Below, piece after piece: positions 51,302-53,702 of a stretch of 58,503 bases of DNA. The notes beneath the pieces are model-generated. The model ran no database searches. It saw nothing but the letters and a program-made list of their open reading frames with translations, and was not told the origin of the DNA. Made by a program: the position numbers and the translations under genes. Source of the stretch: an uncultured Eubacteriales bacterium. Its GTDB lineage: Bacteria > Bacillota > Clostridia > Peptostreptococcales > Anaerovoracaceae. Location of the stretch: NCBI GenBank assembly GCA_900318105.1, contig ONJG01000033.1, forward strand, positions 1-58,503, written 5' to 3'. Within the stretch, counting starts at the first letter, position 1, and each line of letters opens with the position of its first letter.

Positions 51302-53420
51302 CTAACTGAGTTTGACAAGGTTGAGTCTCAGGGCGTTCATGCATACGCAGAAGCTCGAGAGGCTCATGGCTGCGGCCGCTATCATCGGGCTCAGTGTCCA
51401 TCCGTGGAAAATCGCTGTATACGCACCCGCGGCCAGTGGTATAAGCAGTATATTGTAGAAGAATGCCCAGAACAGATTCTCATGGATGTTCCTGAGAGTG
51501 GCACGGCCGAGCTTGATTGCTTTTACGGCGTCGGAGATGCTGCTGCCCGTAAGGACGACATCGGCAGCATCAAGTGCGACATCTGTGCCCGCTCCTATGG
51601 CTATTCCTACATCGGCACGGGTGAGCGCCGGTGCATCATTGATGCCATCTCCAACCATCGCGGTCCTTCCCTGCTCCATCAACTTTCTTACAGCCTCTTC
51701 CTTTCCATCCGGCAGCACTTCCGCCACGACTTCATCCATTCCGACCTCAGCCGCTATGGCTTCTGCGGTCTTTTGTTTGTCTCCCGTTATCATCACGGTC
51801 CTGATGCCCAGGCTCTTAAGGTCTGCTATGGCAGCTTTGCTGTCTTCCCTTACTGAGTCGGCAAGTGCTATCACGCCGAGTAGTTTTCTTCCCTTGCAGA
51901 AATATACAGGAGTCTTTCCCGCGTGGCTGAACTCCTCAGTTTCCTTCTGGATATGTTCCATATCCTCCTCGCTTACTTTGTTTTTAATCATGAAAGTTGC
52001 ATTGCCGCCTGCTATTCTGACTGCATCACTGCCCACCCAGGTAAAAGCGGCAACTCCGCCTCCCGGGGCTTCTTCGAAATCACTTATGCGCATCGTGGTG
52101 CTTCCGAAGTGCTCACATATGGCTCTGGCCAGAGGATGCTCGGATCTCGACTCGATGGCAGCAGCCACCTCTTCGAGTTCTTTTTTATCTACGCCCTTGC
52201 AGGTAAAGACATCCGTCACCTTTGGGTCGCCTCCGGTAATGGTACCGGTCTTATCCAGCGCCATTATCTCTATGCGGCCTGTATGTTCAAGCGACGCTGC
52301 AGTCTTAAAAAGAATGCCGTTTCTCGCTCCTACGCCGGATCCCACCATTATGGCTACAGGCGTGGCAAGTCCAAGTGCGCACGGACAGCTTATGACAAGC
52401 ACGGCAATCGCTCTTTCAAGCGCTGCAGCAGTGCCTGCGCCCAGCAGCATCCATATGACGAATACCGCAACTGCGATAGCAATCACTGCCGGTACGAATA
52501 TGCCGGATATCTTATCCGCTGTCCTGGCTATAGGTGCCTTGGTGGCTGCAGCATCGGATACAAGGTCTATTATCTTGGCCAGAGTGGTATCCTCACCTAC
52601 ACGCGTGGCCCTGGCACGAATGAATCCGGATTTATTAATAGTTGCGGCAGAGACTGTGTCTCCTACGCTCTTGTCCACAGGCATGCTCTCTCCGGTGAGC
52701 GCGGACTCATCGACGGCAGTGCTGCCCTCGATGATCTCGGCATCGACCGGAATTCTCTCTCCCGGCCTTATGACCACGACCTCCCCCTCACGCACATAGT
52801 CGATGCCGACGATGAGTTCCTCACCATCGCGCTCAACCTGCGCCGTCTCGGGCACCATCTTAATGAGCGCCTTCAGAGCGTCTGTCGTCCGCCCCTTCGA
52901 CATGGCTTCCAGCATTTTGCCCACGGTGATAAGTGTGACTATCATGGCGGCTGACTCAAAATAGAGCCTGTGCATCGATGCCATCTGGGCATCGTCATGC
53001 AGCGAAACAGAAACCGAGCCGTTCATTCCGCCGATTATTTCAAAAAAGAGTACATAAGCGCTCCAGAGAAACGATACTCCCGAACCCATAGCTACCAGTG
53101 TGTCCATATTGGGCCCGCCGTGCATCAGACCTCTGAATCCGTTAATAAAGAAATTGCGGTTTATGTACATGATGACTGCAGCGAGAACCATCTCTATGAT
53201 TGCAATCGCCGGCGCAGTTAATCCTCCGCTTGCCGATCCGGCCTCTCCGATTCCGGGCGGCCAGTTCCACATCACAACGCCCATGGAGAAATACATGAGC
53301 ACTAAAAGAAGCAGCACCGAGAGCATCAGCCTCTTTTTCAGTTTAGGCGTTTCTTTGTCCTCGAGAGCTTCTTCTTGTTTCTTTACCTTTTCAAGATAGT
53401 TCCTTTGTTCAAAAGGGGGA
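51302..53420 (-). CDS. copA: P1B-type copper-exporting ATPase, catalytic part (reached by +1 frameshift)
   Basis: About 690 residues after the join. CPC motif in VISCPCALGLATP, phosphorylation site DKTGT, SEHPLA His-Pro, GDGINDAPAL hinge, and Cu(I)-type residues YN (AFFYNILL) and SS (MSLSSFCVCMNAL) in the last helices. It expels Cu(I). This frame has no start codon near its real beginning: between the metal-binding domain stop (53409) and the first helix it reads RPPFEQRNYLEKVKK with no ATG/GTG/TTG. The domain upstream would join it by a +1 shift at TTT-TGA (53409-53414). A long in-frame start at 53503 would encode an unrelated peptide. Confidence 0.85.
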
Positions 53421-53621
53421 CGCTTCCTCCTCGCATGCAGCGCCATAGCCCGCATCCTCCACAGCCTTGATGACTGCCTCGGGGCTTGCTGTACCCTCAA
53501 CATTCATTGAGTTGGTCAGAAGGCTTACCGCAACTTCCGTTACTCCCTCAACCTCGGATACGGCCTTTTCGACTCTCGCCTGGCATGCTGCGCATCCCAT
53601 TCCGCTTACTGAATACTTCAT
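53409..53621 (-). CDS. heavy-metal-binding domain (CopZ-like, N-terminal domain of copA)
   Basis: 70 residues. GMGCAAC with Cys10 and Cys13 is the Cu(I) site of the HMA fold, and the length equals a free copper chaperone CopZ. It ends EEEASPF-stop at TGA 53409-53411, inside the run CCCCCTTTTGA. The ATPase frame continues from the same point one base later. It can be either the product of normal termination (a chaperone) or the N-terminus of full CopA made by frameshifting. The gene has a GAAAGGAAAC site and the promoter at 53674-53702. Confidence 0.8.
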   Translation of the reverse strand: MKYSVSGMGCAACQARVEKAVSEVEGVTEVAVSLLTNSMNVEGTASPEAVIKAVEDAGYGAACEEEASPF

Positions 53622-53673
53622 TATCTCTGTTTCCTTTCAAAAACTATTTGCAAACTTAATCAATTGCGAGTAA

Positions 53674-53702
53674 ATCCTACTACTGCGGTAGGATTTTGTC
53701 AA
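53674..53702 (-). promoter_or_regulatory. copper-inducible promoter candidate with AAATCCTAC/GTAGGATTT operator
   Basis: TTGACA (53697-53702), 17-base spacer, TAGGAT (53674-53679). The spacer and -10 are covered by a perfect palindrome AAATCCTAC-N7-GTAGGATTT (53672-53696). This is the geometry of a CsoR or CopY-type repressor site at copper export operons. The regulator itself is not in the window. Confidence 0.6.

Follow-up and report, generated by a model that had tools for sequence, protein, structure and literature searches.

The window, a 58,503-nucleotide stretch of DNA from an uncultured bacterium of the Eubacteriales, carries on its minus strand a copA gene whose N-terminal metal-binding (HMA) domain and copper ATPase lie in different reading frames, and this raises the question of how the two parts are expressed. 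A sequence-only reading of the same DNA had proposed that programmed +1 ribosomal frameshifting yields both a copper chaperone and a copper pump. Comparison with orthologs strongly supports this proposal, and the probability that copA is expressed in this way is put at about 0.9.

The copA locus of the window

The zero-frame ORF (53409..53621, minus strand) encodes 70 residues with a GMGCAAC metal-binding motif and matches Pfam HMA with an E-value of 7.5e-19. It ends in the junction context GCG UCC CCC UUU UGA, where UCC occupies positions 53420-53418 and the shift site CCC_UUU_UGA occupies 53409..53417 on the minus strand (CCC 53417-53415, UUU 53414-53412, UGA 53411-53409). The ORF and profile matches identify a P1B-type copper ATPase (CopA) of 702 codons plus stop in the +1 frame (51302..53410, minus strand), open from GAA at 53410-53408 to the stop at 51304-51302. 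The match to the copper ATPase model TIGR01511 scores 560.5 bits against a cut-off of 397, and the translation contains the CPC motif (CPCALG), which places it among the CopA pumps. CopZ-type NCBIfam models also match the 70-residue ORF, with scores under their cut-offs, and its relatives in the PDB include CopZ and the HMA domains of CopA. From these similarities, the 70-residue product is predicted to be a CopZ-like copper chaperone that would also form the N-terminal domain of the pump. Upstream of the shift site, an AGGAGG (53426..53431, minus strand) is part of the coding sequence for a Glu-Glu pair, 8 bases from CCC and 11 bases from UUU. The positions given in the sequence-only reading for the ORF ending at UUU-UGA, for the ATPase one base further on and for the AGGAGG were all confirmed on the minus strand.

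A +1 offset conserved among orthologs

A DNA search for copA in the 47 genomes of the genus gave a match in 43. The +1 offset was found at the same place in 14 distinct copA copies from 13 genomes, mostly of uncultured bacteria, and the 13 copies other than that of the window share 55-80% identity with it across the first 250 ATPase residues. The sequence-only reading had suggested comparing this position in relatives, where a continuous frame would have spoken against it. In the eight nearest orthologs (71-76% DNA identity) the ATPase is +1 relative to the HMA ORF in 8/8 and no continuous frame occurs. The more distant +1 copies are found in genomes G004, G005 and G001, with two in G024. One-frame copies occur in 31 genomes of the genus, G001 having both kinds; the rest of the set consists of G046, where a fragment lacks the part matching the ATPase query, and of G008, G022 and G045, from which no copy was retrieved.

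The sequence at the junction varies among the copies. The window and loci L008 and L010 have UCC CCC UUU UGA, L005, L009, L011 and L012 have UCU CCC AGU ARA UAG, and L145, L154 and L155 have UCG or UUG CCC AGU AAA UAG. The remaining junctions are UGU CCC AGU AGC AAA UAA (L147), UCG CCC AGA GGA UAG (L006 and L007) and UCU CCC UGA (L024). CCC is therefore followed by AGU_A in 8/14 copies, by UUU_UGA in three, the window among them, by AGA_G in two and by UGA in one.

Wider sampling yielded no further frameshift copies. Among the best 80 of 579 confirmed matches in named genomes, HMA and ATPase share one frame in 79, and the contig of the remaining locus (L105) begins within the ATPase. A family set of 296 genomes (261 with a match) and an order set of 393 (232 with a match) overlap, and the base-by-base reading covers the retrieved loci only, so that rare +1 cases beyond the genus are possible. 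In all, 227 locus records were read, many of which repeat one gene. The 27 records with a +1 offset all come from the same 14 copies, and 190 have one frame, six have no HMA, one has no ATPase, two have one frame with a stop between HMA and ATPase (L120 and L284) and one appears as a -1 case (L220). The last was rejected, as it stands in a single assembly (G279) with a truncated HMA, the ATPase in another frame and the coding sequence between them absent; it is likely a damaged or misassembled copA copy. The copA at L120 (G248) has an in-frame TAG at about 1309-1311, immediately past the CxxC motif in the N-terminal HMA, and is otherwise in one frame; it too comes from a single assembly and was set aside for that reason.

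Age of the offset and constraint on both frames

A tree was built from 64 ATPase sequences. In it a branch with support 97/90, recovered in 98% of 200 bootstrap trees, separates the 14 frameshift copies from the rest. Three sub-clades are present within the frameshift clade, separated by long branches. By our reading of the tree, the bases after CCC have been replaced at least three times while the offset survived strong protein divergence. CCC_AGU_A occurs in all three sub-clades and would be the simplest ancestral site.

Both frames bear the mark of protein coding up to and from the junction. Among nine close copies, the pairwise differences at zero-frame codon positions 1/2/3 are 0.084/0.090/0.504 in the 120 nt before CCC and 0.504/0.181/0.167 in the 90 nt beginning 28 bases past the first base of CCC. 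The fast third position thus moves by +1 at the copA junction. Conservation of the HMA frame runs through the residues SP, and that of the +1 frame sets in some two codons later (RNYLEKVKKQE). In 14/14 copies, at least 494 codons past the shift can be read in the ATPase frame with no stop, as far as the loci extend. An offset kept through diverged orthologs, with constraint on both frames, is what a programmed +1 frameshift predicts. Its presence in 14/14 copies of the clade exceeds chance.

CCC as the candidate slip codon

The sole element common to 14/14 copies is a zero-frame CCC at the junction, and the +1 codon overlapping it is CCA in 10 copies and CCU in four, the arrangement of a CCC-type +1 site. 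Elsewhere in these copA genes CCC makes up 25 of 268 Pro codons, versus 14/14 at the junction; the counting script picked the last in-frame CCC, and the CCC column is invariant in a nine-sequence alignment. In 39 other long ORFs of the window, picked mechanically, CCC accounts for 91 of 525 Pro codons. Passages of published work describe properties that fit such a site: tRNA-Pro(UGG) of E. coli pairs weakly with CCC and is prone to +1 and +2 shifts (PMC4519876), CCC and UUU come next after CUU in slipperiness before a stop (PMC10885494), and a shift of 15% is given for the CCC_UGA of E. coli pheL (PMC5009743). Across the clade, the comparison of junctions indicates that the slip is likely to take place on CCC rather than on UUU.

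The codon following CCC gives a less uniform picture. AGU is the rarest Ser codon, both in the window ORFs (55/907) and in the 14 copA genes (52/576). In the window ORFs AGA is the commonest Arg codon (324/840) and UUU is not rare, so that a slow A-site codon fails to explain the five copies that have one of these. A zero-frame stop adjoins the candidate slip codon as UUU_UGA in three copies and as CCC_UGA in one, and two or three sense codons separate CCC from the stop in the other 10.

A pattern scan of 10 genomes found tRNA-Pro(UGG) together with tRNA-Pro(CGG) in eight and CGG alone in two. A search with two DNA queries found tRNA-Pro(GGG) in 2/47 genomes: the window genome G000 (contig C92, 2609-2685, L184) and G026 (contig C42, L331). 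Most genomes are incomplete, and a gene may have escaped the search where it falls into a gap of the assembly or has diverged further. The other typed matches, full-length or partial, are tRNA-Pro CGG or UGG and tRNA-Ala GGC, and fragment L360 yielded no tRNA. In most of the genus it is tRNA-Pro(UGG) that must read CCC. Absence of tRNA-Pro(GGG) is nevertheless insufficient as the whole explanation of the shift, since the window genome itself carries that gene. Its contig C92 is not obviously contamination, and the genes flanking the tRNA gene there match the genus at 73-77%.

Stimulatory elements

In the 30 bases before CCC, AGGAGG is present in 3/14 copies, exactly the three with UUU_UGA, a weaker GAGG in six further copies and neither motif in five, and a conserved Shine-Dalgarno-like stimulator was accordingly rejected. 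In prfB such an element stands 3-4 bases upstream of the slip codon, and in prfB genes of the same genus CUU_UGA is preceded at 4 bases by GGGAGG in 9/10 tested genomes (L294-L303), the site not being found in the tenth (L297, G015). The AGGAGG of copA lies 8 or 11 bases away, depending on whether CCC or UUU is counted as the slip codon. The sequence-only reading had drawn attention to this AGGAGG, which is not supported as part of a conserved mechanism.

No conserved downstream RNA structure was found when 14 sequences were folded across two downstream spans, without pseudoknots. The z-scores were mostly about 0, the lowest being -2.6 (L011, 50 nt) and -2.1 (L155, 80 nt), and a consensus fold of nine sequences gave -0.3 kcal/mol.

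Alternative explanations of the offset

The sequence-only reading had itself named a sequencing error or a plain indel as its alternative. The assembly that contains the window is 77% complete in 92 contigs, and CCCCCUUUU forms a run at the site, so that a mistake of sequencing or assembly might be suspected, or an indel that has recently disabled the gene at a C/T homopolymer. An event of this kind would have to be repeated in 13 genomes, at junctions that include non-homopolymer ones such as UCUCCCAGUA, and to have left the long ATPase frame open in each of the 14 copies; the orthologs refute it, and its probability is practically nil. Transcriptional slippage at a homopolymer would give mixed mRNAs, for which the C5U4 run of the window-type site could be suited, but the other 11 copies have just three Cs and no long run, which makes such slippage extremely improbable. 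There could also be two starts, with a separate HMA chaperone gene and an ATPase translated from the overlapping +1 frame by internal initiation or by termination-reinitiation. Some ATG, GTG or TTG is present upstream of CCC in the +1 frame of the window and of nine other copies, and the same genome has a Zn/Cd-type cluster with separate HMA and ATPase frames and an ATG for each. In the window, two ATGs stand in the +1 frame at -38 and -29 relative to CCC, and the one at -29 (53446-53444) is preceded at nine bases by GGAGG. The earlier statement that the ATPase frame has no usable start thus needs qualifying for the window, though these ATGs are not common to all orthologs. L011, L145, L154 and L155 have no +1-frame ATG, GTG or TTG from the last stop (-44 or -26) to at least +85, where by eye the first membrane helix begins or ends, in a scan for these three start codons. 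Start positions also differ among the copies, and the conserved +1-frame sequence RNYLEK begins immediately past the shift site. Internal initiation is possible for the window taken alone; on the sequences compared it cannot serve the whole clade, and the two-start arrangement is judged improbable.

A further alternative concerns the slip codon within the frameshift reading. In the window and the two like copies, tRNA-Phe may, as the sequence-only reading proposed, slip at UUU_UGA in the manner of prfB, with AGGAGG as the stimulator. UUU before a stop is listed among the more slippery codons in a passage of PMC10885494, and the confinement of AGGAGG to the three UUU_UGA copies would suit this mechanism. 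Yet 11/14 copies keep the offset with no UUU there, and AGGAGG stands 11 bases from UUU as compared with 4 bases from the slip codon in the prfB sites of the genus. This variant is rather doubtful, and as a conserved mechanism UUU_UGA, with its 3/14 copies, has to yield to CCC. For the window-type site, a slip on CCC_UUU and one on UUU_UGA are equally conceivable, and both lead to the same protein.

A model for copA expression

In the preferred reading, programmed +1 frameshifting at CCC, ribosomes that stay in frame would terminate at the UGA, which is UAG or UAA in relatives, to give an HMA protein of 68-73 residues that would act as a CopZ-like chaperone. A fraction of ribosomes would slip by +1 with peptidyl-tRNA-Pro in the P site on CCC, the tRNA re-pairing with CCU in four copies, including that of the window, or with CCA in the other 10, and would go on to make the HMA-ATPase fusion that is CopA. 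In 9/14 copies CCC is followed by AGU, a rare Ser codon, or by a stop, and this may give time for the slip; the codon at this place in the remaining five copies is AGA or UUU, neither of them rare. We infer the slip itself, the slip codon, its efficiency and the chaperone function. More tentatively, copA frameshifting may here have had a second, independent origin with inverted logic. Standard decoding would supply the chaperone, and the amount of pump would be rationed through a +1 slip in which tRNA-Pro(UGG) leaves CCC, where its pairing is weak, for CCA, with which it pairs fully. The pump:chaperone ratio might then follow the supply of tRNA-Pro or the modification of its anticodon loop, possibly in response to copper.

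Relation to known frameshift systems

A -1 frameshift in E. coli copA was reportedly described by Meydan 2017 and Drees 2017. According to passages of later papers, the zero frame of that gene encodes an 834-residue pump and the -1 frameshift gives a 70-residue chaperone (PMC5009743), so that CopA and CopA(Z) are both produced (PMC5009743, PMC9548414, PMC6747150, PMC10187127). The likeness is that an HMA chaperone of about 70 residues and a P-type pump come from one gene, with the frameshift after the N-terminal HMA. In E. coli, however, the pump is the default product and the chaperone is made by -1 shifting, whereas here the chaperone would be the default and the pump made by +1. The site is also another one, and a conserved downstream structure was not found in the clade. 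The window copA does not have the pump in the zero frame with a chaperone made by -1, in agreement with the sequence-only reading, which had set its site apart from that of E. coli. Judged by its sequences, the copA clade resembles the E. coli system in outcome and is a non-member by direction, site and default product.

The prfB (RF2) site CUU_UGA would share with the window-type copies a +1 slip before UGA. It differs in that copA is without a Shine-Dalgarno sequence at 4 bases, in that the stop does not adjoin CCC in 13/14 copies and in having no evident link of copA to RF2. To our knowledge, few bacterial cellular genes except prfB need a +1 frameshift. The +1 shift of yeast Ty3 proceeds without re-pairing. 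Its site, given as GCG_AGU_U in a passage of PMC5009743, has AGU in the A site as do 8/14 copA copies, and differs in the P-site codon and the organism. The same source describes the +1 sites AAA CCC_UGA and ACA CCC_UCC of the Listeria phage genes tsh and cps, one phage also using CCC_UCC (PMC5009743). There too the +1 slip takes place with CCC in the P site, whether the A site holds a stop or a sense codon; unlike copA, which is a cellular gene with CCC_AGU_A as the commonest site of the clade, these are phage structural genes.

Literature searches, which did not extend to the original E. coli copA papers, listed no +1 frameshift in copA, and the GeneTack paper (PMC3711429) gave no passage on copper, copA or ATPase. 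If the frameshift is real, copA would have been recoded independently in a phylum far removed from that of E. coli, with the shift running the other way and the default and shifted products exchanged, and evolution would have arrived more than once at coupling chaperone and pump through frameshifting. On a single gene, the clade also provides a natural set of sites (CCC_AGU_A, CCC_AGA_G, CCC_UGA and CCC_UUU_UGA), suited to the study of how the A-site codon and tRNA supply affect +1 efficiency.

Copper context and promoter region

Upstream of the window copA, a promoter-like TTGACA-N17-TAGGAT (53672..53702, minus strand) overlaps the inverted repeat AAATCCTAC/GTAGGATTT, which is perhaps a candidate operator of a copper (metal) repressor. 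Inspection by eye found a TTGAC(A/T) promoter-like element with a TCCTAC/GTAGGA inverted repeat in 6/14 copies, namely those of the window, L005, L006, L007, L008 and L010. A CsoR match above the cut-off was obtained in 10/13 frameshift genomes (not in G031, G021 or G005), and in G015 copA is immediately preceded by a CsoR gene. This occurrence of CsoR is consistent with copper control of copA, though not proof of it.

In G031, a genome that is 96% complete, no HMA match apart from the frameshift ORF was obtained, and the same holds for G016 and G029, which are less complete. Each of the remaining 10 frameshift genomes has between one and three HMA matches in addition to its frameshift ORF or ORFs. 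Across all 13, none of the HMA matches lies in a frame of ATPase length. Two HMA domains within one frame of 862-880 codons were found in G009, G010, G019, G034 and G043. At L003 in the window genome (contig C66), an ArsR-like gene, an HMA in a 90-codon frame and an ATPase in a 662-codon frame are found together. Both the HMA and the ATPase there have an ATG of their own at which translation could start, in contrast to the frameshifted copA of this genome.
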